Translations under genes and position numbers: made by a program | The notes under the pieces: generated by a model | The model's input: the letters and a program-made list of their open reading frames with translations, nothing else | The model's database searches: none | Told to the model about the DNA's origin: nothing | Assembly: GCA_950295325.1 (NCBI GenBank) | Contig: OX485805.1 | Location: 57,622,758 to 57,686,757, forward strand | DNA from: Polytrichum commune | Taxonomy: Eukaryota; Streptophyta; Polytrichopsida; Polytrichales; Polytrichaceae | Reading direction: 5' to 3' | DNA: 64,000 nt | Part shown: in pieces, positions 20,139 to 53,052 of the stretch | How the letters are laid out: each line of letters begins with the position of its first letter | Numbering within the stretch: position 1 is the first letter of the stretch

Positions 20139-20149
20139 CCCTTAACCTT
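20139..20149 (+). repeat. left target-site duplication of the MULE
   Basis: CCCTTAACCTT occurs here and at 32919-32929. The core CTTAACCTT (20141-20149 and 32921-32929) is a 9-bp duplication, the size usual for MULEs; the two extra C may be shared by chance with the element end. Confidence 0.85.
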
Positions 20150-20225
20150 GGGCGTTGCTAGGGCATGAGCGTAGAGCGTAGAGCGTAGAGCGTAGATTTT
20201 CTGAGTTTCGAGCGGAGAGATTTTA
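20150..20225 (+). repeat. left terminal inverted repeat of the MULE with heptamer array
   Basis: After GGGCGTTGCTAGG comes GCAT and four tandem GAGCGTA heptamers (20167-20194). Downstream, CGAGCGGAGAGATT (near 20210) recurs at the right end in the same, not inverted, orientation. Heptamer arrays at transposon ends commonly serve as transposase-binding sites; this is inference here. Confidence 0.85.
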
Positions 20226-20269
20226 TTTTTAGTAATAAAATTTCCAAAAATAAAATATTATTATTTTAA

Positions 20270-20497
20270 ATGGTATATTCCTTAAAATATTCGAATTTTT
20301 TATCCTTATGGCCGTGGAATTTAGTACCCATAACCGTGCAAAATGGGTTTGACATATGGAAAAAATTTATATGTGACCGAGTTTTGGAGGAAATAGATGA
20401 CTTCATTGAAGAGAACTACAAGGACACATGTTCACGGAAGAGCACAAGTGAAGGACAAGTACAAGTTAATGATGAAAACATAAAATTTAAAAGCTAA
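20270..20497 (+). other. 75-codon open frame between the MULE left end and the transposase
   Basis: The frame contains NGFDIWKKFI and an acidic part (RVLEEIDDFIEENYKD). I recognise no domain. It lies where the missing last exon(s) of the transposase would be expected but on the opposite strand. It may be chance or an inverted remnant. Confidence 0.25.
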
Positions 20498-20590
20498 AGA
20501 TTTGATATTGTTTAGATACTACATTAGACGCAGAGATAAGAGTGCAAACTTAAAGAATTAAAAAATTTGAATGAAAAAGTGCATACTTAC

Positions 20591-22702
20591 CAGTTCCATG
20601 AATCCACCCCACTGCCTATATCGGAAATGCCAAAACGCTAGCCAGTGGTTCAAATGGTGGAGGCCAGCGTCAGAGGTCGCACCCGAAGATGTCCACCAAG
20701 CTTTGATTGCCAAGTAACGTGTTTCAGCCTCTGCCACAGACCGTGCATCTTTGTATTGCATACATAATTTCTTGTGTTGATCTTGCAATTCGTGCACGAT
20801 GTATTGTTTGGTGTGTTTTTCTAGGGATTGCGCCCAATGGAAATAACACGTTCGCTCGCAGCCTTCCATGGGTATCTTTGGGTCTCCGGATCCGTAGATG
20901 ATGCGCACAGCGTTCCAATTGGCTTGCGCACTATCAGCCATGAAACCTTTGAACTGGGGCTTGTGTATTCCATGCCTACCCATGACATGGTTAAGGTTCT
21001 TCCAGAAAACGAGTTGAGCATCTTTGTCCTCAGACTGGAAATCACAGCAAGCAATGGTGAGTACACGTTGGTAAGAGGAGTCGTACACGTGGCAGGCCAT
21101 GGTGGTCCAGTTGGCAACTCGTTTGACGTGGTCAAACATCATCCAGGAGTGCTCTAAATCGCCACTAGGTTGCATTCGGCGGACAAGGTCAACACCGCTG
21201 CCAGGTCCCACCTCGGACATCTTGAATATGAAGACCTTGTCGGAGTCGTCACCTTGGCCTGGAAACATGTTTCGTTGCACGTAGGCCCAGTTGCTCAACC
21301 CTCTGAGCTTAGTGATGCCATCAAGAACGCCATATCTGCGCAAATACTTAAAACTGTAGACACGGTTTTTTAAGTTAGGGGAATTGAGCTCCTTGTAGCA
21401 TTGGAAGATAGGCTCTAGCTGTTCTAGAGAAAATAAGGTGGGAGGGTCGTCTTCTTCGCGGAGCAAGACGTTACCTAAAACATCCTTGCTAGTTTCCAAG
21501 ACTATTTTGGAAATGGTAGCCTGCGGGTTGCGCTCAACATGTTGTTCGATAAAATCGTCGATTATCTTCCGCGTGCCCCTATAGTCTCCTACCTTGACAG
21601 GATGCTTATGGTTGCCTACATGGACGCAAGCACGCTCTTGCGTATCATCTCCAAAAACGTAAAAGATTTTTGCATCACAAGAGGCTACACAAACAGGAGG
21701 TTCTTTACAGATCTTACAGACTAATGTTGAAGTTGGAGGTGGAGCGTCTGCAACAGGGAAGGCATCTTTGGAAGAACCTTCGAACTCGACCTCGTTCACT
21801 CCATATGCGCGTTCAGGCCGTTGCAGAAACCCACATTTGGGATTGTGGCATTGAAGATGACCTACACAGTTAGACGACCGGAATGACAACCCCAGCGTGT
21901 TACTGATGTTAGTAGTCATAGTCTTTGTCCATATATGGCCATCGTAACGTTTGTCCATACCTTCCATAGATTTAGCATTCTTATGGACTGCAGATGGAAG
22001 GGTGGGAGGAAGAATGAAGATTACATCCCCATTGAACGACGGTGGCAGGAAATCTACGTTCTCAGTATAGATGGAATCATAATTCATTTTCTTAAGAACT
22101 GACTTGCTTCCAGGCATACTACCTAGGGAACGAAGGGAGGGAAGAATGTTTATCAGTTTTGTAGTTTGCGAAGGTATAAGGAAAGGAGTAGTCCTACGTG
22201 AATCTTGAGAAGAGGAGGGAGATGGACGCTTAGCACTAGACCGGATTGATGGATGGGAAGGCCTCCCCTCATCATCAGAAGAATCAGACAAATCAATGCT
22301 AACGCGGAGACCTGGCTCGATCTTGACACGAGATAGTAAGGGGGCTTCAGTGCACAGTGTAGAGGAACTGCAAGGAGTGAGGAGGACTGTAGTAGCGTTC
22401 ATGGACTCTGACAAGCCAAAGACGCGATACTTTCCGGGCTTGAGTTTCCAAACGCGAGCATTATTGTCTAACGTTACGGCCTGGACGTATAAGGAATAAA
22501 TGACATTTTGAGTTTCCGGATTGACAACATCTGTTTCTAACCACAAGCTATCAGCATCGAAACCAAAACGAATGGATAGCCACTGGGGAGTGAGATCAGC
22601 GGTTCCATCAGGGCCAGGAGGTATGCATGTAGGGATAAGAGATCCAAGAGAAACAAGTTCGATGACATCGACGAGTGGAGGTTGGACAGCAGCGGAAGAC
22701 AT
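20591..22702 (-). CDS. MULE-type transposase with GCM/WRKY-like zinc cluster, 3' end missing
   Basis: The chosen ATG at 22702 (MSSAAVQPPLVDVIELVSL) lies about 70 bp after a TATA-like TATATAT on the minus strand; the frame is open 36 codons further upstream. A serine-rich, acidic linker precedes a Cys/His cluster at about residues 280-390: CHNPKC, then CKICKEPPVC and ACVHVGNHKH, a pattern like the WRKY-GCM1 zinc fold often fused to MULE transposases. The RNase-H-like core follows, with MMFDHVKRVANW, SEDKDAQ, FMADSAQANWNAV (near 587) and CYFHWAQSLEKH (near 620). It would cut and join the element ends. The frame reaches a consensus donor (ctg|gtaagt) at 20591, yet only about 440 bp remain before the terminal repeat and no acceptor exon was recognised, so this copy is probably truncated. 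Confidence 0.8.
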
Positions 22703-22895
22703 TGAGAAACAATTTGACAATGCTATGTGAGAAGGAATTTGCAAAAGGGGGATCGAAAAGAAACAATGGGATATATACATGAGAGGTTGATGAAGACGTT
22801 GGACATCCAAGACATGTACAGAATGTAGTCAGAAAATGTTTGGTTAATCATGAGAAATATTAATAATCTGTATAAACAGTAGTGTGAACAATACA

Positions 22896-23333
22896 TCATG
22901 GAGTGGGAGACGAAAATGGGGCCTTTGCCATATGGGGCCCTTTGCCATATTTATCATTGTCATGTTTATGACAATGATCAATTCCTAAACTACGAACTGC
23001 AGTGCATCCTGCGCAATCGAGTTTCTGACCTTTGGCACTCCTCAATATGGATCTAGAGTAAGTGCCAGGTTTAATAACCCCTGCTCTAGAATAGGGATGA
23101 ATCTTGAAAGTAGACTTGTTCTGTATCAGTAATGCATCAACTGCCTGCAAAGATGGAGTCTGTGGTTGAGGAGTGGGAACCACGACCGCAGGAGTAACTG
23201 AGCAGTCAGGTGGGTTGGCATTCTTCATGTTCTTGACGTCTGCAGAACCATCGATGGACAACGTTGTGTGAATTTGAGATGAACTAGAAGCACCTAATGG
23301 AGCAAGGCTTGGGAGACGTGAGTTAGTACCCAT
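22896..23333 (-). CDS. small MULE-borne protein with Cys/His tail, unknown function
   Basis: The 145-codon ORF has its ATG at 23333, about 55 bp downstream of a minus-strand TATATAA (23388-23394), which supports this start. The N-terminal two thirds are serine-, threonine- and proline-rich. The C-terminal part has LDCAGCTAVRSLGIDHCHKH, a CxxC...HCHKH cluster that could bind a metal. The codons for HCHKHDND contain a perfect 11-bp hairpin (22953-22978, loop gttt). It is collinear with and just upstream of the transposase gene, so it may be a helper protein or a first exon. No family was recognised. Confidence 0.5.
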   Translation of the reverse strand: MGTNSRLPSLAPLGASSSSQIHTTLSIDGSADVKNMKNANPPDCSVTPAVVVPTPQPQTPSLQAVDALLIQNKSTFKIHPYSRAGVIKPGTYSRSILRSAKGQKLDCAGCTAVRSLGIDHCHKHDNDKYGKGPHMAKAPFSSPTP

Positions 23334-23387
23334 TGGAGAAGATATTGATGAGATGACATGAAGGAAAAGGGTAGCAATAATCGGGTA

Positions 23388-23860
23388 TTATATACAATTT
23401 GGGTTGACAACAATACCCGAATAATTGACAACTTATTAGATCAATTAATAGTCAATATTTATTCATGTAAATTCTGGACAACATGTTTCATGTAGGATTA
23501 GAATGTACTCCAGTAATAGTCATTACTTCCTGACCACCAAATATGATACATGTCAGTATAGACTAATTTTTATACGCACCCAAAAATAACCCAATATATG
23601 CTATGCCGAAATGCTGAAGTTAAACCCTAAAGGTGTCTGTACCTTAAATGGAAAAACATGACAATTCAAAAATTTCTGGAGGCCGACATTGTCAGGGGAG
23701 ATGCGTAAATATATAGACAAATTCGAAATAGATTAGTAATTGATGTCAGTGTTGTAAGATATCTAATCTCGGATTCCGCGTTTTTATTAAACGCGGGATT
23801 ATAACTCGATGACATAGCTTGCTAGAAATTAAATATAAAGGAAAGGGATTCGGAGGACTA
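23388..23860. promoter_or_regulatory. divergent promoter region with palindrome
   Basis: Between the two diverging gene sets are a minus-strand TATATAA at 23388-23394 and a plus-strand aatataaagg near 23832. A stem of ATTCCGCGTTT and AAACGCGGGAT (23773-23799, loop ttatt, one mismatch) lies between them. The TATA spacing to the starts at 23333 (about 55 bp) and 23949 (about 115 bp) is plausible for core promoters. The palindrome could be an operator-like protein site; this is inference. Confidence 0.5.
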
Positions 23861-23948
23861 GGTCATTCAAATACAAGTTGTGTTGTAGTTGGGTTAGGGT
23901 GTTATTGTTGTTTTACAAATTTGTGTTCATTGATCGAAGTATCCAACC

Positions 23949-24314
23949 ATGGAGGCTACGAGTAGTAAAACAAACAAAGTGAATGAGGTAGGGCGGGGGA
24001 GGAAGAAGAAGAGAGGTGGTATAAAATTTAGTGGGGCCAAGGCTTTGCGACGGAACGCGTTGCGGAAGAGGGATGCCCCGGGTTCTTGCGAAGACGATCG
24101 AATAGTAGATGAAGAAGATAAGAACGATGAGGACGAGCCAGGAATGTTCAGAAAGACTATCACGATGCAGCCGTTGAACTTGGATGCAGTTGTAGAAAAT
24201 GTTGATGGTGAAGAAGAAGACGATGGAGGGGAAAAGGACAATGCAATCGAAGAGCAAGAATGTAGAAGGCCCTCATCATCGAGGAGTGATTATGGGATTC
24301 GAAAACGACAGTGA
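23949..24314 (+). CDS. small charged MULE-borne protein, unknown function
   Basis: The 121-codon ORF starts at an ATG about 115 bp after a TATA-like box. Residues 15-45 are strongly basic (GRGRKKKRGGIKF, then ALRRNALRKR), like a nuclear or nucleic-acid-binding tail. Residues 50-110 are strongly acidic (DEEDKNDEDE, then GEEEDDGGEKD). No domain is recognised. In the next frame the sequence stays open past the stop to a good splice donor (MGFENDSDEEGIDKV|gtaagt, near 24337). One frameshift may therefore separate this from a first exon of the downstream ParB-methyltransferase-like gene. Confidence 0.5.
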   Translation: MEATSSKTNKVNEVGRGRKKKRGGIKFSGAKALRRNALRKRDAPGSCEDDRIVDEEDKNDEDEPGMFRKTITMQPLNLDAVVENVDGEEEDDGGEKDNAIEEQECRRPSSSRSDYGIRKRQ

Positions 24315-24933
24315 CGAAGAAGGGATCGATAAAGTTGTAAGTTCCAAGACCCTAAAACCTTGAAAATGAGTAGTAAACTTCAGTCATAGTCTTACTTGCT
24401 TATCGTGCGATCCCGTGGGGTGAACCTAACAGAGGCAAAGGGTAGATGTTACAAAGATAAATTATGGCTTATGATGCCTATAATATCATACAAACTTATG
24501 TCATAGACGTTTGTTCTAGGAATTTGTTCTAGGAACTTAATATCTAGGAATTAGTTTCTAAAGTTTGTTTGTCACATGATTGTTGCCTGTTGTATGTACG
24601 TGTTGATAACGTCTTAGTATAAGTAAGTGGCACTTGACGATGAAACGACACATTAATAAAAAAATCAATCTACATGACCCTCAATATTGGCAGTCAGATA
24701 TTCAATTATAAGCGAAAAAATTAATGAACGTGGGAGTCAAAGTGGCTGGATAACTGGGAACACTCGGCAGTTCGGGCAGACACCTCCAACCCACCTGGTA
24801 GACTGATCCGACAGAGCGGGACCCTCCGAGCAGGTCGGGTAGCGATGGATTGTTTGGGAAGGTCTCCATAACAGATCTTATTGCAAATGACCGCCTTTGA
24901 TTGAATCGAATTTGCAATATATGTTACTAGGAA

Positions 24934-25008
24934 ATGGCAGCTGAAGGAGGATGTGCAGTTACAAGGTTGGAGGGCACCCCCGAAAACGTCGACGAAGATT
25001 TGGAGAAC
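24934..25008 (+). CDS. possible upstream exon of the ParB-methyltransferase-like gene
   Basis: It starts with an ATG (MAAEGGCAVTRLEGTPENVD) and ends EDLEN|gtaagt, a consensus donor in phase 0. A possible next exon follows a T-rich acceptor (ttttttttgtag|) at about 25964 and encodes VSSQRVHGAEYNSYLSEM. Its junction to the main exon at 26152 could not be fixed, so the true N-terminus of the protein is uncertain. Confidence 0.35.
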
Positions 25009-25258
25009 GTAAGTCCTTCATCTTCATCGAGTTATTTCAATGGGTCCATTGTGAAGGGAGCATTGTGAGGTAAGTGTGATTTTAAAACCCTAAAATATTA
25101 TCTGTTGATAGTTGCAATGAGATGGCGGATTGTCACGATGCTTCTGAACGAAGTTGTGATTGAATTTGTGAGACCCATCTGCCTGGTGGTTGTCAAGTGC
25201 CGATGAAGACCATTCGCGGCTCAAAGGCTAGTAGGGTTTGTTTTTGCGGTACATTTTT

Positions 25259-25890
25259 CTGCTATACCCTCTGCCTTGATGAATTTGTGCGCCGATGATG
25301 AGCTTCTGGCTCTGAGGCAGGATAGGGTATATAGTTTGATTTTTGGCAGTTTGCTTTAGGAAAATGGGTGACCCCTGCGTTGGCGCAGGGGTCCTTTCTG
25401 CCTTGATGAATTTGTGCGCCGATAATGAGCTTCTGAATCAGAGGCAGGTTAGGGTATATAGTTTGATTTTTGCAGTTTGCTTTAGGAAATTGGGTGACCC
25501 AAGGGGTCCTTTCTGCCTTGATGAATTTGTGCGCCGATGATGAGCTTCGGGCTCTGAGGCAGGATAGGGTATATAGTTTGATTTCCTGCAGTTTGCTTTA
25601 GGAAATTGGGTGACCCCTGCGTTGGCGCAGGGGTTCTTTCTGCCTTGATGAATTTGTGCGCCGATGATGAGCTTCTGGCTCTGAGGCAGGATAGGGTATA
25701 TAGTTTGATTTTCGGCAGCTTGCTTTAGGAAAATGGGTGACCCCTGCGTTGGCGCAGGGGTCCTTTCTGCCTTGATGAATTTGTGCGCCGATGATAAGCT
25801 TGTGGTTCAAAGGCAGGTTAGGGTATATAGTTTGATTTTTTGCAGTTTGCTTTAGGAAATTGGGTGACCCCAGGGGTCCTTTCTGCTATA
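25259..25890 (+). repeat. 127-bp tandem repeat with hairpin, probably intronic
   Basis: Five copies are marked by gggtatatagtttgatt at 25325, 25452, 25567, 25694 and 25821 (spacing 127, 115, 127, 127). Three copies carry the hairpin GACCCCTGCG-TTGG-CGCAGGGGTC (25370-25393, 25612-25635 with one mismatch, 25739-25762). The other two have lost about 12 bp at exactly this point (gacccaaggggtcc; gaccccaggggtcc). Short open frames inside are products of the repeat. Confidence 0.9.
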
Positions 25891-26151
25891 GGTTATATGA
25901 GTATTTTTTTGTCATGTGATAATGGCCTATTTATTCTAATCCATATTCTTTTTTTTTTGTAGGTTTCTTCACAGAGAGTACATGGAGCCGAGTACAACAG
26001 TTACTTGTCCGAGATGCTTAGTGGTTTCAACATTGTCTTAGCTAGTCGTCATTTAGTCATAGGTTTACTTGCTATAACTTAGCTAGTCATCGTTTATAGT
26101 ACTTCATATTTTTTTCCTAAGTGTATTGTGTTTCATTTACCTACCTTCCAG

Positions 26152-26990
26152 ATGACATTATCCGATGTTCCCGTACCCGAGCAAGTCCCACCTCCCTCGA
26201 TAGATTCCTTGGAGGAGGATTGTGGCATTCCCCCTCAACATTCTTCAATCCTAAATGTTGCCGACTTGGAGGAGGATGTCCCATCCTCCGATCAACATGC
26301 TGCTGATACCACTCAAGAGGCCACCCAAGAAGCCGATACCATACAAGAGGCCACCCAAGAAGCGCCCGATTCAAGCGACAAACGCTCGTCAAATCCCTTA
26401 CGTCCTCCTGGTGGTGTTGAACTTGGCATTGTTCACATGCCTCCTCATTTGCAGGACAAGGACCCCATGTGGAGCGCAAATGAGATGAGATTGCTGCAGA
26501 AGAGTGACTACAATACTGTCATCTCCAATCTTCGCACCAAACCCATTAAGAAGTCTCGATTCCTTATTCCTCTTTGCCGTCTCAAGACCTACCCGAAGGT
26601 GCGTCCAATTGTCGATTCCTACGTCGAGATGTTGGCGAACGAGTTCGTCAAAGGGTATCGAGAAGGAGATCGAGTTTTGTATGTGTTTCCTTTCGACATC
26701 ACGGACAAGGATCTAACGGTTCGAGAGGATGACGCCATCTGGTCTAACCCACTATGGAAATCTATTAATAATGAGTTCGAAGAGTACTTGTCGTCTGATC
26801 CTGATCTCCATCAGTTTCGGAACAAATACTTTTATGTCTACGAAGGTAATCACCGCGTGACGGCTTGGATGGGTTACATCCACAAGTACCATTCCAATAA
26901 TCCTGACTGGTACATTTCGGTTGACTGTATTGTTCTCGACGCACGTGGGCAATGCTCAATGTTTCTCAACGCCATGAACGACATAAACTG
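26152..26990 (+). CDS. first main exon: ParB/sulfiredoxin-like domain
   Basis: The exon begins after the acceptor ccttccag|ATG and ends AACTG|gtaagt, splitting a Trp codon. Residues 1-95 are acidic and proline-rich with a short repeat (TTQEATQEADTIQEATQEA). Residues 110-280 contain SRFLIPLCRLKTYPKVRPIV, then VYEGNHRVTAWMGYIHKYHS. The GNHR motif followed by a helix is the signature of ParB N-terminal and sulfiredoxin-like folds (usually G[NH]HRxxA), which bind or hydrolyse nucleotides. Upstream, DKDLTVREDDAIW and NEFEEYLSSDPDL fit the intervening helices. It is joined to the methyltransferase-like part by eight or nine further exons. Confidence 0.7.
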
Positions 26991-27557
26991 GTAAGTATAC
27001 TTGCAAATCCATTTCCATTAATTTCATATTCCATTTACCCATGGAAGCCTTGTTTTAATACTCATATCTTCATTCACAGGTCGACGGAACATGATCATGT
27101 TCAAGACAGTACTATTGCCAAGTTGCAAAGAATTCGAACCTTCAGCTCCTTCAAACTTTCTGATTTCAAAGGTCTTATTAGCAAAGAGGACATGGCTATT
27201 TGCGAGGCTTATAAACCCCGTCTACCGTCATGGTATTTATTCACAATGGACATTTTTGTTAAATTCCTCCACGCGGTAAGTTTTCTAAAGTTATGTGCTT
27301 ATTGTTTTCATATTATGAAGTGCATCATGCGTTTCTTGCATCTTAATTATTGTCATACAGAGACAATGCGCTGCTGTATCCGACGTTGCTTGCTCGAACT
27401 ATTACGAGACTGTGCCCGAGAATGAGAGGATTGGGCCTGGAGTCTGGAGTGCGATGGACAAGGCCATCACGAAATGTATCAAGCACTGGCGCAGCCAAAG
27501 GTTTGACAAGATGGTTGCAATCGCCAACCAGCCAATGGAGAGTTATTTGAACAAGAG

Positions 27558-27840
27558 GTATTCTCAACTCAACTCTCAACTCTCAATTCAACTGTCAACT
27601 CTCAATTCAACTCTCACCTCTCAACTCTCAACTCAATTCTCAGTTCTCAACTCTCAATTCTGAACTCTGAACTCTGAACTCTCAATTCTCAACTCTGAAC
27701 TGTGAATTGTGAACTGTGAACTCTCAATTCAATTCTCAATTCTCAACTCTCAACTCTCAACTCTCAATTCAATTCTCAATTCTCAATTCTCAACTCAACT
27801 CTCAACTCAACTCTCAACCCTCAACTCTCCATTTTCCACG
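27558..27840 (+). repeat. CTCAA/CTCTCAA minisatellite, intron of the ParB-methyltransferase-like gene
   Basis: Short units ctcaa, ctctcaa and ttctcaa alternate for about 280 bp between a coding segment ending near LNKR and the acceptor ttttccacgcag| at 27843. Frames through it are open by composition only. Confidence 0.9.
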
Positions 27841-29148
27841 CAGCTCAATAAACATTATACTAGCGGGAAATCATTGGACTTGACCGTTGAGCGACTTCAT
27901 AAAATTGCAACCACCAAGGTCCATCCTGACTTCAAAGGGAAATGGTTGCAATTGTGGAACGGAACGGACGAGGAACGGGCAGCCTACCGATTTCCACTAG
28001 ATCGTCCAATGAAGGACAAATTCCTCGACGTCTGGTTGCCAAGGGCTTCTCTCTGGGCTCAGGTATGACGATACTTACTTCCTCTAGGCTCTTCATTTTT
28101 AATCCGTTGAAATTGTCGTTACTTCTAACACCCATCGTTTCATAATGTATGTCAGTTGTCTACTTTCCTTAAAGACCACATGGACAACTATGTCGCTAAA
28201 CTTAAGATCAACATTGAGTGGAGCTCCGTTGTTCTCAAGCCGGCGGAATACGTGGAGAAATGGAGATCGCTATTGTGGAAGAAGGCTTTCCCCTTCTACC
28301 TCTCGGAAAATGCAAGCCCAAGGTTTCTCAAAGGTTCAGGGCTCCTTAAGATTGAAGGTGGAATTTTGGCGGGCCGCTTGTTTTACAGGTTTGTATGATT
28401 TGGCTTCTTGTTTGATTCAGTGTTCTCTTTGTCTCTATCACCCTTCCTAAATGTAACGCATATATGCAGGTACATGAAGCAAGAGCTCATCGCCAAACGT
28501 GCTCTTGCGGCTTGGGAAGTTCCGGCTCATGTTGAGCTCAAACCGTCTACCCAAACGCCTATTGATGGACTTTGGACCGAAGACCAACGCAATCGATTTC
28601 CCTATGAGGTATTGCTCACAGGTGGTTGGTTCCTCGAGTGCCCACAGAACTTCGTTCCTGAGGAGGAGAAACATCTCGTCCCTGTCCCGGAACCATCTAC
28701 AGGAGGAGCGGCTCCTATGGTCACTGACTTGAACGACGACGACGAGGAGGCAACTCAGCCTGAACCTGCTCCGAAGCCAAAAGTTCAACGTCGAGGGAAG
28801 GTTCGTTCTCACGACGGTTCCGTTGTGGCAGCCTCACCTGCATGTGTTCAAATTCCTGCAGGAGCTCCTTTGGCTTCGACTCAGACTTCGCAACGCACGG
28901 TTTCTAATCCGCCATCACCCCCACGTTCCAACTTGGATGTTCAATCTAGCCAAAATCTTCGTGTCACACTCTTTTGCCGTGGTGTACCACCCCCGAAAGG
29001 TGTAGGTGTCATTTCGTCTTCGCCGTTTAAGACGACCCTGCCGATGTTTCTTGAGCATGGAAACTTCTGTGCCTTGCTTAACCAGTCTGAACACCAAAAA
29101 TTCATGGATCGGCAACTTGTCCGTATCGTAGACCACATTATCAAGGTC

Positions 29149-29325
29149 ACACAATCCCAACTCAACTCTCAACTCTCACCTCTCAACTCTCAATTCAACT
29201 CTCAACTCTCAACTCTCACCTCTCAACTTTCAACTCAACTCTCAACTCTCAACTCTCAATTCAACGCTCAACTCTCAACTCTCAACTCTCAATTCAACTC
29301 TCAATTCTCAACTCTCACCTCTCAA

Positions 29326-29361
<36 letters not shown>

Positions 29362-29377
29362 AACTCTCAACTCTCAA

Positions 29378-29427
<50 letters not shown>

Positions 29428-29464
29428 AATTCTCAACTCTAAACTCTAAACTCTCAACTCTCAA

Positions 29465-29510
<46 letters not shown>

Positions 29511-29514
29511 CTAA
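29149..29514 (+). repeat. second CTCAA/CTCTCAA minisatellite, another intron of the same gene
   Basis: The same repeat family as at 27558-27840 fills most of the intron between 29145 and 29600. Apparent coding such as NSQLSTLNSQ is repeat readthrough and not protein. Confidence 0.9.
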
Positions 29515-29599
29515 CTCTATCAATTTCAAAATTGTCTTGGACTAGTGAGGTTTTTTTTTATCGGTAACTCATGCTTTCCATTTTTTCTTATTCATACAG

Positions 29600-30883
29600 A
29601 TCGGGGTCGGCCGTACTTATCCTTGTGAATCGATGCAAATGCGGCCTAGGCATCCTGGAATTGATCTCGTGATTGTTGACGCTCCAGAATACTTGGTCGT
29701 GCCTGTCATCTCTCCCATGTCCGTACCGTCGTGGAACAAGCGAGAGACAGACTACTTTGACCAACTCTTCGCCTTTGCAGATTGTCACTTGACCGATGAC
29801 GGAGTTGTTCTCCTCTTCCATCCCAAGGACCGTTGAATCGAGAAGAAGTTAGATAGTAAAATCAAAATGTATGATTTTACGATTGTCCGGGATTGGTGGG
29901 GCTATAATCCCATTCCCATGGCCTCCTCCCTTCCACACCAGAAAGAGGTATTATCTTTTATGTTCATAATTTGAATTTCTCAATCCGACAATCAGTTTCA
30001 ATATATTCTAATCCTTGAGGTTTTCTTACAGACCCATAACTTCAACATTAAGGTCTTTGCACGCCTTAGTTCCAAGTTCCGTACTCGCCGATTGCGACCG
30101 TAGTTCGTACAAATGGAGATCCTTCCCGAAGAGCGCGACGACTTGACGAACTTCACGACAACCGAGTCCCAGCTTCTACGCCCTACTGGACTTCCTTGGC
30201 GTGGCTCGCGTGAGAAGGACCCATCATTTGTTCAGTGCTTCATCGAGTGTCTTACAGACGAGCATGATATCGTCTGCGATTGGAGCCCTAGTACAGGTTT
30301 TCAATATCTCCCTTCATTGTTTACAACAACTGAAACTGAATTCCACTTTCTAAATTCCGTTTTCCAAACTGCAGGTGCTTCTGTCATTGCTTGCCAACGT
30401 TCGAACCGACACCTCATCGCATTGGAGCCGGATTCAGAAATCTTTGAGGCGCTTCTCAAGCCTTACGTGGATGCGATCCCGCAACCAGAAGAGCGCGCGG
30501 ATTCAACCACAGACTCTGATTCCGACGAAGACTTTGCTCCAAAGAAGAAGAAGGGTCGCAAATATTGCGGTGCGTCTTAACTGCATGTCTTAAGTCTCTC
30601 AAATATTTAATGTATTCATATAATTTGTCATGTTGACTTTGTTTTATTATTTAGTGACGCAGGTCTCGCAAGACGTTTGATCCGCCACGGTGATGTCTAC
30701 ATGAGTCCTCCTACTTCGTTCGCCTTACCTTCATATGCCGAACGTATAGCACAAGAATTCATACGCGCCCCATCTCCAATCCTTTCAGATTTTCCACGTC
30801 AACTTTTCAACCCTATAGTGCTTAGATTCATGGATGTCGAGGCTGATCAATGTGACGAGAGTTTCGATGTTGGTTCACCTTGA
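29600..30883 (+). pseudogene. methyltransferase-like C-terminal part of the fusion gene
   Basis: Exon 29600-29947 has GIDLVIVDAPEYLVVP at the position of motif IV (normally DPPY/SPPY), then helix KRETDYFDQLFAFADC and DDGVVLLFHP, the strand after motif IV. Exons 30032-30296 and 30375-30569 join to give LPWRGSREKDPSFVQCF and then DIVCDWSPSTGASVIACQRS, the motif X/I region (normally a DPFxGxGTT loop), followed by RHLIALEPDSEIFEALLK. The order motif IV then I is the beta class of DNA amino-methyltransferases. DAPE and WSPSTGA depart from active-site consensus. A lysine-rich stretch (KKKKGRK) precedes a last exon ending at a TGA at 30881-30883. Confidence 0.7.
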
Positions 30884-32844
30884 TCAAGACTATCCATATG
30901 TTTGTTTCTGGTTTGTTACGTGCATAATGTAGCCATTTCAAATGGCCATTTCTTTTTAAAATAAAACATCTACAAGTTTCTTTGTGTCATAGCTATTGTA
31001 GACTTGTCAAAGAAGTTCAAAGAAGTTGAAGTTTGAAAGTTTGAGTTATGCCATTTGCACTGAAATGCATGTGCACGCTTCTAACTTGAACACTGAATTG
31101 ACTCTATCTAACAAAACTTTGTCATATCTAGTGACATTTGGGAGATGTCACTAGATGGAACTCCCAATTTTTAATACATACATGAATTTTTCTCGCCATC
31201 ATATTTGTTGCTTCACAATTGCTCCTTTGTTTGTTTTGAATAAGTCTATGGCTTAGAATAGGTGTCTACAACACCCTTGCTTCAAATATTTATGTTAAAT
31301 TGCTCAAGCCTCCAATAATTTATATTCCAACGCCCAATCCTTCCTTTCGGATTTGCTAACACATTGATATTTTCACTCCATGCTCTTTGCACTCCTAGGT
31401 TACCAATTCCCTTGAATTGTCATGAATAGGTGTCTCTACCTTAGAGGGTGTATAAACCAACACTCGAGAGGGCTTAGCCGATTTAGATCAACGGTATAAA
31501 TGATTGGCTTAGCAAATTGACCTAGATTTATGGGTTGCTCGACCCAACTCTCGACGCAACCTCCAAACCTAACCTCCAATAACATGTAGTGATGTAAGCA
31601 TCCACATCAAAGTTGGGACATAGGACTTAGGACCCCACGTGAAGTAATAAGTCCCAATTTTTATCCTTTCAACAACTAAGTTTGCACATATTGACCTTAA
31701 GTGAACTAAGACTTGGGACCCCTTTTGAACCAACCCTTAGTGAACCGCCCTCGTTCACATCGACTTAAAGTGCCGAATTTATTTTTCTTTTCTTTCTTTA
31801 TTCCCCGGCCCAAGGAAGATGGTGGTCCACCAAATTGTCCTATTAGTGTGGGTTACCATTTGGGGTTACGTATTGCTAGAACTTTTTACCGACATTATTA
31901 TATTTTAACTAACTAGATTACATCATATTCTTCAATGTGCGTACTAAATACTTGTGTCATTTGGGTAAAAAATTATACTCTCTGTAAAATATCATAGCAA
32001 TGCGTAACTGCAAACAATAACCCCCACTAATTAGGCAAAATAGCGTAGTAAATACCATAAGCCTTGTAGTTGAATTTTAACATTGGCTAGGCATTTTTAA
32101 AATTTAAGATCATGACTGGTCATCTCTAGATTCCACCTATAAGAAGATAGAGCAATATTACTTTATAAGTTATCCATAAATCAGAATAAGGAAAACTTAT
32201 TTGGAAATCAACGTCTAGAATTTGACAATGACTTAGTTGAAGAATGAGGTAAGTAAACCTAATTTGGTTACTTATCTTGATTGAAAATAATTATGTTTAA
32301 ATGGTCTTTGGTTAAGTGTGTATCCAAGAATGGACACCAAGAAGACACGTGTTTGATAGATTTGGAAGAAAGGCATAATGTTCCTCAATAAACCACACAA
32401 TGTTTAATACTCTCAAACAATATTCTTTACTAAAATTGTCGGCACTACCCTCTCCACTGAGATTCTAGATTGAGGGGACCTACCTACATGACCGATTAAC
32501 AAGCACAAGAATATTCACTTGTTGGATTGTATAAACTTTGCCATTTAAATTATTGTTTCGAGGATGCCAGCCCTAATTACGCCCTTAGCCTTAAACACTG
32601 AAATAAATTTGTTAATTAATTAAAACACAATTTCATTTCAACCTTGAACGGTCCTCATTTAAATCACCCTTTCATATAAATGATGACGTCAGCCCTAATT
32701 TCAGTATATATATAATAACAAAAATTTGCAGTAGGACCCCCTTCCACGGATTTGGGGTACTCTTTTCCCTAAAAATATACATTTATAGTTTTCTCTAGAC
32801 CAAATTCAGTGGTAATAGGATCCTTATGTTTCAATAAAATTTTG
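30884..32844. other. non-coding right arm of the MULE
   Basis: About 2 kb of AT-rich sequence lies between the ParB-methyltransferase-like stop and the right terminal repeat. I see no exon, RNA gene or nested element end that I can support. Confidence 0.55.
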
Positions 32845-32920
32845 AAAAGCGAGCGGAGAAATTCACGAAAACATGACGCTCACCGCTCTACGCTCTACGC
32901 TCATGCTGTAACTTTCCCCC
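32845..32920 (-). repeat. right terminal inverted repeat of the MULE
   Basis: Read inward on the minus strand it starts GGGGGAAAGTTACA, then GCATGAGCGTAGAGCGTAGA, with two perfect heptamers and one altered (GAGCGGTGAGCG) against four at the left end. The nearby GCGAGCGGAGAAATT is in the same orientation as its left-end partner. Confidence 0.85.
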
Positions 32921-33248
32921 CTTAACCTTCACCTTCAAAGTAGGGACTAATCCCCTTCCACCAAGCTTCCTTCTTCCTAAACTACCAAGGTGGATCCAAA
33001 AGTGGGCATTTAACCCGCGGAGCTCACCTTGCCTCACCTTACCCCCTACTCACATAATCAAGGCATCCTCTTATTGAAATCAAACCTTGAAATAACTACA
33101 CCACACATTTTAATGCCTAAACTTAAATCCACACCACACTTCACTCTTTTTATGTTTTGTGAATAATCATAACACCTCAAAGTCAAACTAAAATTGGGTT
33201 CGAAGACTTAATCACCACATGTGGGCACCATTTTGGGCTCACACCTTG

Positions 33249-34192
33249 TGATTTATGGCCGGTCATTGCGTATGCTAGAACAATTGAGAATGATGCTTTG
33301 TAATAATATTGTTCATATGTGTACTTGTGTTGGAAATTATGTCGTTTTAAGGAGATTTGCGTCAAGGTCCCGATGATTTGAACACCAATGGTTGTGACCA
33401 CACCTTGGTTGTCTGTATGGATTGATGTTACCGTTGTGGGTGCACCATTGACAGCTCCTTTTGCAATATTGACATTCGATGTGAACATAACGAGCGCACC
33501 TCCAGCCACATGATGAAGTTGGTCAAATTTGGTGTCATTCAACCATGTCGATACGTTGTGAGCTTCGGTTGCATTTGTATCAAGTGTCACAGGAATTCTA
33601 TATGCCGGGGCAAAAATGGCTTTGAATATGATGTCGTTGTACGTGGTAACATCTTCGCGGTGTGAACACAAGATCGTCGTAGTTGCATCTAGATAGTGTG
33701 ATAGCATGTCGTTGTCAATGAAGCACGCACTGAGTGTGTCTTCGATCTCTGCTTATGTAGGTGGCCGATGTCGTATTATATTTAGGAAATTGAGATACGA
33801 TGGATCGGATGAATGTCTAACAGATGTGTGAAGAGTGTGTTGTTTTGCAGCTGCCCAACATGGAGCGGAGGTAATATGACATGCTCTACAAATGAGGTCT
33901 GGTGGTTTGGGTTTGTGTATACATATCGCAGGCAGTTGAGCAAGGTCTCCAACTAATATCAAAAGTTTATTTTGGAATGAAAATGTGTCCGTGATAAGGG
34001 TGCTTTGTTTATGCGTTGTTCTACTACACACAACATATTGCTAGTCATCATCGACATTTCGTCAATGATTATGACGTCTGCGTTGTTTAATTTGGTCAAA
34101 ACGGGGCTTGATTCAGGTAACACAGATAAATAGCTATGTGTAGGTATACGAAATACATTATGGACTGTAGATGCGAATTTGGAAAGCCTAAG
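33249..34192 (-). pseudogene. Helitron B helicase, middle segment (Walker B to motif V)
   Basis: Reading from 34192, RLSKFASTVHNVFRIPT leads to ADVIIIDEMSMM (Walker B), then KLLILVGDLAQLPAI (motif III, GDxxQLP), then late motifs ending AYAMTGHKSQG at 33249. It needs at least two frame changes (near 34000 and 33730), so it is a pseudogene. Its left edge is the CAAGG target duplication of solo LTR 1 and its right edge is the CTAAG duplication of LTR 2. Both joints restore the codon frame when the LTRs are removed. Confidence 0.85.
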
Positions 34193-50882: not shown

Positions 50883-51461
50883 TTAAAAGTATTGGGCGAT
50901 ATATTTCACAAAGAATGTTTTGCCACTTCCTGGAGTACTTGTGAGGATATGTAGTCCATGTGGATTTTGTAAAATGTTGCCCATAATGTGTTGTTGGTCC
51001 TCAGTGAGTTCCATATTCGCAATATCTATATCAAATACGTGGTCAATATGTTTAGGTGGTCGTTTTGTATTCACTCTCTCGCGATTTGATAACGGAATTG
51101 AGACATGAATATCTTGTGATATGTGTTTAGGGTTTAAGAATGGATAGTCTTCCAAAAGTTGCTCGAGTAGTTGAGATCGTTTTTCTGTGTCTATGAGGTT
51201 GCGGTGTGTGTATTGTAATAAGTATTCTTGAATGGCGTCCAAGTTTGAGATGATTCCACGATCGTAACATTCACGGATATAACTTTTTTCGTTGTTTGTA
51301 GAAGAGAAAAGATCATTTTTGTTTCTAAAGAGAATGGTGCGAATGAGAACGTTAAAGAAAAATGCATCTGAATTGTGTGTCGGGTGGAAGTCTGTGAACC
51401 TCGTGATTTTATGATTCTCGTCTATGTAGAATTCGAGTTTGTCTTTTCCAAAAGAAGGCAT
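50883..51461 (-). pseudogene. Helitron B helicase, N-terminal segment with Walker A
   Basis: The minus frame ends ELTEDQQHIMGNIL, then GLHILTSTPGSGKTFFVKYI. Here Q-motif-like residues precede the P-loop STPGSGKTFF of a PIF1-type helicase. A stop follows QYF (50880-50882), after which the frame continues with KIILSATTEAAAL into the segment beginning at 34192. Upstream, about 150 codons are the variable linker between Rep and helicase. Confidence 0.85.
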
Positions 51462-51772
51462 ATTTTTTCCATGTCGAACCTCTTGAAATAATCGGTGAAT
51501 GTCATGTCCTTGTATTCATGGGGTCTGTTGCAGTAAATGTCAATGGGATGGAAGCCTAATAATCTCGATTTAGTGACCATTCTTGTTCGTAGTGCACGTG
51601 GTTTGGAGTCGATGTATTTAACAGCAATGTTTTTTTGAACAATCGGTATTTGCAAGTAAGCAAGCGCTGCTTCTGAAGGTGAGACCGGTCTAGCGATGAT
51701 AAGCGATGATAAGCGATGATATGAGTTTAAGTTGTGCGTCAGAAGTTCCATGGAATTCCAATCGTTCGGCAT
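51422..51772 (-). pseudogene. Helitron B Rep-helicase linker segment
   Basis: It starts MPNDWNSMELLTHN and includes VSPSEAALAYLQIPIVQKNI, which resembles the conserved segment between Rep and helicase (…EAAWRIL…). It overlaps the next segment by about 40 bp in a different frame, so a frameshift separates them. The region 51773-51840 just upstream supplies YYLLRYVMKCEP, the end of the Rep tyrosine region. Confidence 0.7.
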
Positions 51773-51840
51773 TTTTTTTGTTTAAGTTTATGGGGTTCAT
51801 GAGGCTCACATTTCATTACGTATCTCAAGAGATAATACGA

Positions 51841-53040
51841 CTAATACGTTGTATTTATTCGTTGTAAACTCAAGTGTGCACCCCACAACAATAACAAGGA
51901 CGCATAATAAGGGACAACGTTACGGTCTTCATGTCTTGGTCTATAGTATTCCCACCTTTTTGTTTCGGAGTTGTATGTTGTTTTCTCTTCAATGTGTGGT
52001 TTGAAAGGAAATCCATATTTGCAGTTGTTTCCATTGGTTTGTTGTTGACATCGAGAGTTGCACGTATGCAACTGTTTTCTCATAACAATCTCAAACAAAT
52101 TATTTTGATGTGAGTCTAGAGGTTCCAAGAATTCTTCAATGGTTGTATCAAAAATTGTCGGCGTTGGTCCTGTTATTTCATTAGTTACTCGTTCTATGTC
52201 AACTTGGTTCATCCACAAAATGATATGGGCATGCACAGAGCCTCGCGACTGTAATTCGTATCGTATGACGTATTGATCAATCATACCCAAGATTTTGGGC
52301 CCACTTAATAAGATGTCATGCATGAATTTTTGAATACGTGCATGAAACAAAGTGGCGCATTCAATAGGGCAATCTTTCCATGACATCAATGGGTCTATTG
52401 TTTTTGCTATGTCTTCTATATGTGTTACTTCTTCCCAACGAAGTGAACTTATTTCGTCTACAGTTAAGGTGAGAAAAAAATGCGGCATTCCAAATTTTTC
52501 GACCATAGCCAATAAGTTTTGCAAATGTGATTTATGCCAACGAGGGGTCCCTTGAATGGATGATGGAAGATTGTATTTTGTGATATGTTGCAGCACATCA
52601 TGTTCTGTCATGTGTGGATGTTGTTGTTGAATTTGTTTGATCTCTTCATCTAAGCATGTTTTAGAAGTTTCTTTAATTAATTGCAGAGATTGGCGCACGT
52701 CGTACATACATAATAAATACGGCTTGTATAAGGTGAAAGGAGAGAACATTGTTTCCATGCGATATTTTAAGTATTCAAAAAATGTTACTCTTCCATCATA
52801 TCCACCGTGCCCGTGTGCAAATAAGAATGGAAATAATGCGTTTTCAAGTGTTAGTCCTTTTTTTTTTATATTCATCGTGTCAAATCGAAAAGCGATTGGT
52901 TCACTTGGGATATCAATTTCCGATGCGCCGCGTCGATGAACATCACCAATTACATAGAAATCGTTGTGCTTAATATGAGGTGCAGTGTCACGCATGTCAA
53001 ATAAGATGGTTAAATCGTAGACGGTTGAAGGAACAGACAT
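51841..53040 (-). pseudogene. Helitron B Rep (HUH endonuclease) domain
   Basis: This 399-codon segment has PHFFLTLTVDEISSLRW (Rep motif 1), GSVHAHIILWMNQ (the HUH-type HxH metal site), and CKYGFPFKPHIEEKTT followed by NVVPYYASLLLLWGAHLSLQ, as in the Helitron-like N domain. It ends at a TAG exactly before SYYLLRYVMKCEP, where tyrosine motifs follow in relatives. A TGG-to-TAG change would explain the stop. Rep nicks and joins single strands in rolling-circle transposition; this copy is dead. Confidence 0.88.
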
Positions 53041-53052
53041 CGCAAGAAAGAA

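Follow-up and report, generated by a model that had tools for sequence, protein, structure and literature searches.

A MULE-like element of the moss Polytrichum commune carries a ParB–methylase-like fusion gene next to lineage-specific palindromes

Here, we report a 12.77-kb MULE-like element at positions 20150–32919 of a 64,000-nt stretch of Polytrichum commune DNA (contig OX485805.1), called the window throughout. The element starts with GGGCGTTGCTAGGGCATGAGCGTAGAGCG at 20150 and its right end, inverted, is GGGGAAAGTTACAGCATGAGCGTAGAGCG, terminating at 32919; GAGCGTA heptamers are common to both terminal inverted repeats, as an earlier note on this DNA had described. The same note had given a 9-bp target duplication; a duplication is indeed present, but it is 10 bp long (CCTTAACCTT in the window). 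It is perfect in 8 of 11 copies, with a different sequence in each, and in the remaining three the flanks agree at 7, 6 and 1 of 10 positions; agreement at 9 or more of 10 positions would arise at random in about 3e-5 per copy. By the criteria for MULEs, terminal inverted repeats are present and the duplication falls within 8–11 bp.

Two divergent genes lie inside the element (Table 1). The transposase previously claimed as MULE-type is there, but truncated: its second exon, 487 aa long in the copy at C7:40.4M, is gone from the window copy. No Pfam family, and no MULE domain, matches the 1191-aa transposase even at E 10. Reading by eye, we found conserved Asp residues in CDxQSED and ADSAQANW and a CxxHW motif in 36 sequences, and further an AExxHN motif and a SWIM-like CxCx(n)CxxxY/H C-terminus; these may correspond to MULE motifs. 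AG/GT borders delimit the ten exons of the fusion gene, whose protein spans about 1,130 aa and includes a long middle stretch. This ten-exon divergent structure agrees with the earlier proposal, with the start of exon 4 corrected to 27844; a start at 27864, from the initial splice, was overruled by the other copies. Please note that the Pfam and PHROGs searches with the window copy, and the genome searches for the fusion gene, used a query spliced at 27864 with X at both stops. The fusion gene in the window is dead (exons 3, 7 and 8 in Table 1) and, with both genes broken, the window copy is ruled out as a working element. Of two further reading frames, ORF3 may represent a 5′ exon belonging to the fusion gene.

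Table 1. Features of the element and its borders in the window.
Feature	Positions	Strand	Basis
Left target-site duplication, 10 bp, CCTTAACCTT	20140..20149		comparison of both flanks
Left terminal inverted repeat, GAGCGTA heptamers	20150..20225	+	sequence, multi-copy comparison
Transposase exon 1, 704 codons; second exon absent from window copy	20591..22702	-	comparison with other copies
ORF2, 145 aa	22899..23333	-	occurs in 9 of 11 F1 elements
ORF3, 121 aa, basic/acidic	23952..24314	+	occurs in 9 of 11 F1 elements
Tandem array, 127-bp units, three 24-bp palindrome sites, proposed parS-like	25270..25871	+	sequence analysis
Palindrome GACCCCTGCGTTGGCGCAGGGGTC, exact	25370..25393		sequence
Palindrome, one mismatch	25612..25635		sequence
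Palindrome, exact	25739..25762		sequence
Fusion exon 1, acidic N-terminus followed by ParB domain with GNHR	26152..26990	+	splice model, copy comparison
Fusion exon 2	27080..27275	+	splice model, copy comparison
Fusion exon 3, one base short, frameshift	27361..27557	+	comparison with open-frame copies
Fusion exon 4	27844..28062	+	copy comparison
Fusion exon 5	28156..28388	+	splice model, copy comparison
Fusion exon 6, variable linker	28470..29145	+	splice model, copy comparison
Fusion exon 7, DAPE replacing DPPY at methylase-like motif IV, in-frame TGA	29600..29947	+	motif placed by eye
Fusion exon 8, motif X and beginning of motif I, in-frame TAG	30032..30296	+	hhalign, copy comparison
Fusion exon 9, remainder of motif I and next strand	30375..30569	+	hhalign, copy comparison
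Fusion exon 10, including stop	30663..30883	+	splice model, copy comparison
Right terminal inverted repeat	32845..32919	-	sequence, multi-copy comparison
Right target-site duplication, 10 bp, CCTTAACCTT	32920..32929		comparison of both flanks

Across the 408-Mb genome we counted 39 matches to the left-end probe and 33 to the right-end probe; 26 end pairs were assembled from them by hand (spans ≤49 kb). A fusion-gene match lies in 14 of these pairs (41 of 3610 search candidates being scored), and F1 fusion matches occur also at two one-ended loci, C4:9.08M and C4:44.04M. As for the other 12 pairs, two were fetched and both belong to a second family, F2; five more have F2 palindromes among the sites listed, the pair at C3:16.2M has F1 palindromes, and four were not assigned to F1 or F2. 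Thirteen elements bounded by these ends were fetched, and each contains, at least in part, the transposase together with a divergent ParB-methylase-type gene, degraded copies being included in this count; both genes recur in two diverged families, D1 and D2, with a single copy examined for each. The fusion is thus a regular second gene of this MULE-like family, as had been claimed, and none of the findings that the earlier note had named as speaking against it (ends elsewhere without the gene, a nested insertion with ends of its own, neither domain in fold prediction) was obtained. Ten of the 11 F1 elements (the window copy is the eleventh) were chosen for having both ends and a fusion match, so that 11 of 11 with both genes is a test of the transposase rather than of the fusion. 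Selection of the two F2 elements rested on their missing fusion match in the genome search, and both hold both genes. The copy at C6:36.3M has no fusion exons 4–9, three further elements miss other exons or are frameshifted, and the sequence of the C7:13.09M copy starts 1.6 kb within the element. Only transposase exon 1 and fusion exons 1–4 were seen in the D2 copy, and the right end of the D1 copy (C5:7.53M) was not found in the stretches examined there.

The ParB half of the fusion protein was modelled with a pLDDT of 86; the predicted structure has the ParB/sulfiredoxin fold and resembles the CTP-binding ParB proteins. Each residue of GNHR, a G-x-x-R motif presumably belonging to the nucleotide site, is conserved in at least 90% of 120 sequences. 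Fold prediction and motif conservation together support the GNHR-type ParB domain suggested before. A Foldseek search with this model gave no match reaching E 0.001, a PDB search by sequence gave none, Pfam returned for this part DUF6551 alone, under its cut-off, and viral contigs contained no relatives of it. The only named relatives come from Ceratodon purpureus. We did not locate a DNA-binding part in the protein; the middle part could not be folded, the structure model from three Ceratodon proteins that was made for the methylase having a pLDDT of 28 and being discarded.

Over motifs X and I, the methylase-like half shows homology to adenine methylases of phages. PHROGs methylase matches have E values of 7.9e-4 for the window copy and 2.5e-5 for Ceratodon, and hhalign against phage methylases gave P 1.1e-8 over 58 columns of the motif X–I part, compared with at least 0.037 for 11 controls; the phage set consisted of four methylases, taken from six fetched records, that are themselves matches of the same query. 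Pfam methylase matches were obtained for the Ceratodon proteins (E 0.0024, under the Pfam cut-off) and not for the window copy. The homology bears out a beta-class methyltransferase-like half, but the catalytic motif IV does not: assigned by eye, its position reads DAPE in F1 and Ceratodon, DVPD in F2 and DIPE in D1, versus the expected (D/N/S)PP(Y/F/W), so ordinary methylation is unlikely. The aromatic residue is replaced by an acid in all three lineages read and in Ceratodon; in the D2 copy the motif IV part was not found. The SAM loop reads DWSPSTG in F1, and a GxG-like DWQCGTG is kept in some lineages. The domain is therefore predicted from sequence to be catalytically disabled. A working DNA-modification enzyme, as first proposed, is not supported by these motif IV readings, and the window copy encodes neither protein intact.

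The array at 25270–25871 in the window, with its palindromes, had escaped the earlier note. Palindromes of 22–24 bp, mostly in tandem arrays, are located between the transposase and the fusion gene, and they adjoin the ParB gene as parS-type sites of ParABS systems do. The four ParB lineages (F1, F2, D1 and D2) have four different palindromes, and across 17 loci no palindrome is found at a locus of another lineage. Genome-wide (408 Mb) there are 97 occurrences of the main palindrome, all of them within or next to these elements; the F2 palindrome has 84 genome sites and is confined to elements among the 50 of 84 listed, confinement being shown for these two of the four lineages. In the two F2 elements the ends are the same as in F1 and the transposase is 91–96% identical, whereas the ParB gene is 47% identical and the palindrome is different; gene and array thus change together. 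Across lineages the ParB exon is 47–53% identical and the element layout unchanged.

The largest arrays contain tens of sites and reach 13.5 kb, with 57 exact sites at C2:69.44M. C6_9.55 retains one imperfect site and C1_1.52, with an open fusion frame, only two, so that a large array is not needed for persistence. Perfect palindromes of any sequence number one each in C1_1.52 and C1_12.9, which some shuffles equal (0–1; five shuffles per locus, preserving base composition alone). Our earlier site counts had been picked by palindrome similarity and were hence biased towards conservation; the comparison was repeated with flank anchors. Palindrome columns then show a slight excess of conservation over their neighbours in the 127-type (0.881 versus 0.846) and 167-type units (0.681 versus 0.620), and are clearly more conserved in D1 (0.983 versus 0.848) and D2 (0.990 versus 0.906).

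We consider it about evenly balanced that the fusion protein binds the palindromes before its own gene and keeps the element unsilenced. The fusion protein and its array would likely form a ParB/parS-like self-recognition module, VANC-like in action. A ParB dimer would recognise each palindrome, load there and perhaps spread as from parS, and the resulting complex would keep out or strip host silencing marks on its own element only, with VANC proteins at Arabidopsis VANDAL elements as the model; the methylase-like domain may bind DNA or SAM without methylating. A fuller scenario, to which we incline slightly less than not, is that a bacterial ParB-methylase became a parS-like means of self-identification, with lineage-specific loading, spreading and shielding confined to the own element, gene and array swapped as a cassette, and rival tags on the same transposase backbone.

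Alternatively, the ParB complex could aid transposition as a partition- or MuB-like helper, through copy bridging or clustering, donor protection or transposase placement. ParB proteins do bridge and spread on DNA, according to the portion of PMC5016525 available, and the gene stays next to the transposase in the examined copies of F1, F2, D1 and D2; however, the sites are internal and follow the ParB lineage rather than a transposase that is nearly the same across two palindrome types, and we regard such a helper as unlikely. Somewhat less probable still is that the palindromes are only an operator for the fusion and the divergent transposase promoters. Their position between divergent genes, immediately upstream of the fusion gene, would suit this, yet the tens of sites in the longest arrays exceed what simple autoregulation needs. 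It is also improbable, more so than an operator, that the fusion works as a methyltransferase which ParB brings to the palindromes to mark element DNA with 6mA or 4mC: the phage homology described above, the DWQCGTG loop, a motif IV read only by eye and a bacterial ParB–adenine methylase fusion on record (PMC5512222, in part) speak for it, while the DAPE/DVPD/DIPE residues in place of (D/N)PP(Y/F) and the F1 loop DWSPSTG speak against it.

That the gene is a functionless captured passenger beside chance satellites is hardly credible to us. Besides the window copy, 8 of the 10 other F1 copies do carry stops, deletions or frameshifts, and such arrays also expand by slippage; against this, two F1 copies (at C1:1.52M, or C1_1.52, and at C5:15.65M) have an open fusion frame, dN/dS between this one pair is 0.34 over the ParB and methylase-like parts, the layout is preserved despite the divergence of the ParB exon, and the palindromes match the lineage, two of them being confined to elements. 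Part of PMC5512222 describes ParB domains in other fusions as nicking nucleases, which makes a cutting role for the moss fusion possible.

We take the moss protein to be a ParB-methylase-like fusion and not a VANC protein. Self-recognition by the fusion and its array would nonetheless have a close parallel in VANDAL/VANC. According to the sections consulted (PMC5735166, PMC10398659), VANDAL elements are likewise Mutator-like, bring an additional gene and have lineage-specific motifs within tandem repeats of their non-coding parts, with co-change of protein and target, the palindromes being the putative targets in the moss; VANDAL sites are the 9-bp YAGTATTAY, whereas those of the moss elements are 22–24-bp palindromes. 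Terminal inverted repeats, the 10-bp duplication and the SWIM-like C-terminus seen by eye resemble MULEs as treated in part of a survey (PMC6446971), whose extra domains include FAR1, SET, PMD and the ovarian tumour gene and in whose text, as far as available, the words ParB and methyltransferase are absent. Among the open-licence papers listed by our literature searches, we saw none that reports a ParB-carrying MULE in a moss or such a fusion in any eukaryote. If the self-recognition reading is true, a ParB/parS-like module works in a eukaryotic nucleus, as a second answer, with an apparently unrelated fold, to VANC's task of shielding its own copies only, and as a new route for transposons to protect or mark themselves. 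The four natural protein–site pairs, two on a near-identical transposase backbone, would offer a direct test of how a DNA-binding protein coevolves with its target and could supply orthogonal DNA-tagging pairs for plants.

With ParB/parS (plasmid sopC, OB iterons; PMC5016525, in part) the moss system shares the ParB fold with its nucleotide-site motif GNHR, as well as palindromes within longer tandem iterons adjoining the ParB gene; it differs in its location in a plant nuclear DNA transposon and in the attached methylase-like domain. Bacillus cereus Bce_0392 likewise joins a ParB domain to an adenine-methylase-type domain (PMC5512222, in part). Unlike bacterial and phage ParB-methylases, the moss fusion has seemingly lost motif IV, is about 1,130 aa long in ten exons, with a long middle stretch, and comes together with an array of palindromes and the transposase of a eukaryotic element. 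A ‘DNA methylase’ of Mycobacterium phage Vincenzo matches the ParB model, a likeness by name and match alone.

The element limits claimed in the earlier note held: the element spans 20150-32919 and is bounded by CCTTAACCTT. In the genome (408 Mb in 64 contigs, with the window on contig C3), the left-end and right-end probes gave 39 and 33 matches, respectively, and our comparison set of the window's ParB lineage (F1) consisted of 11 elements, i.e., the window and ten further elements bearing both ends. All of them start with GGGC(G/A)TTGC and end, inverted, with GGGGAAAGTTACAGCATGAGCG, their sizes range from 10.8 to 15.9 kb, and a perfect 10-bp target duplication, differing in sequence between copies, was found in eight including the window. 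The left side of a copy of the diverged family D1 (G000:C5, about 7548130) carries GAGCGTA heptamers as in the F1 ends; no right end came to light for this copy in the stretches searched.

It had also been asked whether copies with these ends hold both genes; transposase and fusion gene are present, at least in part, in 11 of 11 F1 elements, on opposite strands and divergent. The window transposase is without exon 2; the full protein, in the copy at C7:40.4M, has 1191 aa in two exons, and a Pfam search with it returned no family. We take it to resemble MULE transposases. Public assemblies contain 53 relatives of it. Conservation is strong at a CxxHW motif and at two aspartates, and its C-terminal end resembles a SWIM finger. 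In D1 (C5:7.53M) and a second diverged family, D2 (C3:36.43M), the transposase is 57-62% identical and the layout is as in F1; for the D1 copy at C2:64.97M, the 7 kb upstream reached the array only. In public assemblies, one transposase relative (P0037) and one ParB relative (P0120) each lie on a contig of 674,632 bases; judging from this equal length, the two probably share a single contig and would thus sit together in another genome as well.

The fusion gene comprises ten exons. Its frame is open at full length in two F1 copies (1135 and 1120 aa), four others have in-frame stops (1, 1, 2, and 4), and in the remaining five, the window among them, exons are deleted or frameshifted. For the two open copies (one pair, 1120 codons) dN/dS is 0.34, i.e., 0.24 in the ParB part, 0.21 in the middle, 0.30 in the methylase-like part, and 0.65 in the linker. 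A whole-protein search found no relatives other than three from the moss Ceratodon purpureus, with 46-49% identity over 66% of the query, in which the ParB part is absent as annotated; the ParB part alone gave 200 matches, 120 of them listed.

Directly upstream of the fusion gene, Tandem Repeats Finder detected an array in ten of the 11 F1 elements and in one diverged copy. Five F1 elements have units of 127 bp and four have units of 167-169 bp, whereas one shows several unit sizes between 126 and 399 bp (the best being 147 and 274); the eleventh, at C6:9.55M, has a single imperfect site. The F1 palindrome, GACCCCTGCGNTGGCGCAGGGGTC, is 96% common to the 127- and 167-bp units at sites chosen by likeness to the palindrome, and its left and right flanks are 50% and 16% common. 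D1 has GAGGCCTCGGATCCGAGGCCTC (C2:64.97M, C5:7.53M, C4:47.47M) and D2 has CACCCTCTCGGTTCCGAGAGGGTG (C3:36.43M), at 24 to 62 sites per copy. Perfect palindromes of any sequence number 1 to 57 in 15 loci versus 0 or 1 in shuffles, with just one each in C1_1.52 and C1_12.9. Genome-wide, the exact F1 palindrome occurs 97 times (reversed control, 0): 92 lie between paired ends of this element family, 57 of the 97 being in one element (C2:69.4M) across 13.5 kb, and the other five (C4:9.05M, C4:9.07M) are at most 5 kb from a single family end.

Two elements with both ends and no match in the F1 fusion-gene search (F2) carry a nearly identical transposase, which shares 91-96% identity with its F1 counterpart over the matched pieces, and another ParB gene, whose exon identity is 46-48% to F1, 62-63% to D2, and 58-59% to D1. 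Their arrays contain yet another palindrome, the fourth, AATCCCACGGATCCGTGGGATT, which occurs 8 times in one element and 23 times in the other. This palindrome has 84 places genome-wide (control, 0); among the 50 matches listed, 41 fall within elements that have both ends and no F1 fusion match, and nine, at C4:55.13M, are at most 7 kb from a right end. No locus among the 17 compared contained the palindrome of a different ParB lineage, and 16 have their own lineage's palindrome, C4:53.4M having a variant of the F1 site. Gene and array thus change together on a nearly constant transposase, which links the site with the ParB protein and not with the transposase.

Binding of the palindromes by the fusion protein, although putative, is well supported by this exchange and by the confinement of the sites. 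Some plasmid partition sites are palindromes within longer iterons next to a ParB gene (PMC5016525), and the arrays here are alike. VANDAL elements (PMC5735166 and PMC10398659) are MULE-type, encode an additional protein and have tandem targets that differ between lineages, and VANC binds its targets and strips silencing marks from these only; our MULE-like element is similar in that it, too, encodes an additional protein and has tandem candidate targets specific to the lineage. By such logic the ParB-methylase-like protein would bind the palindromes of its own element, and the outcome, by analogy, might be anti-silencing of its own targets only. Rival outcomes are active methylation by the fusion protein, a helper role in transposition, or simple autoregulation. 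The component parts are each known singly, a ParB domain fused to an adenine methylase being described for Bacillus cereus (PMC5512222); in the open-licence literature searched we found no report of a eukaryotic transposon that combines them and has palindromes to match.

Further frames of the window are listed below. One of them, ORF3, could represent a 5' exon of the fusion gene; the array would then sit in the first intron, like some VANC targets.

Further open frames and neighbouring mobile-element-like frames in the window
Feature	Position	Strand	Remark
Further ORF	22899-23333	-	kept in 9 of 11 F1 elements
ORF3	23952-24314	+	kept in 9 of 11 F1 elements
Helitron replicase-helicase-like piece	33186-33752	-	by eye
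LTR-retrotransposon polyprotein-like frame, 1687 codons	41463-46523	+	by eye
Helitron replicase-helicase-like piece	50886-53052	-	by eye

CTCAACT minisatellites occupy introns 3 and 6 of the window fusion gene (27568-27829 and 29161-29510), and arrays of this type are listed in seven of the 11 F1 copies.
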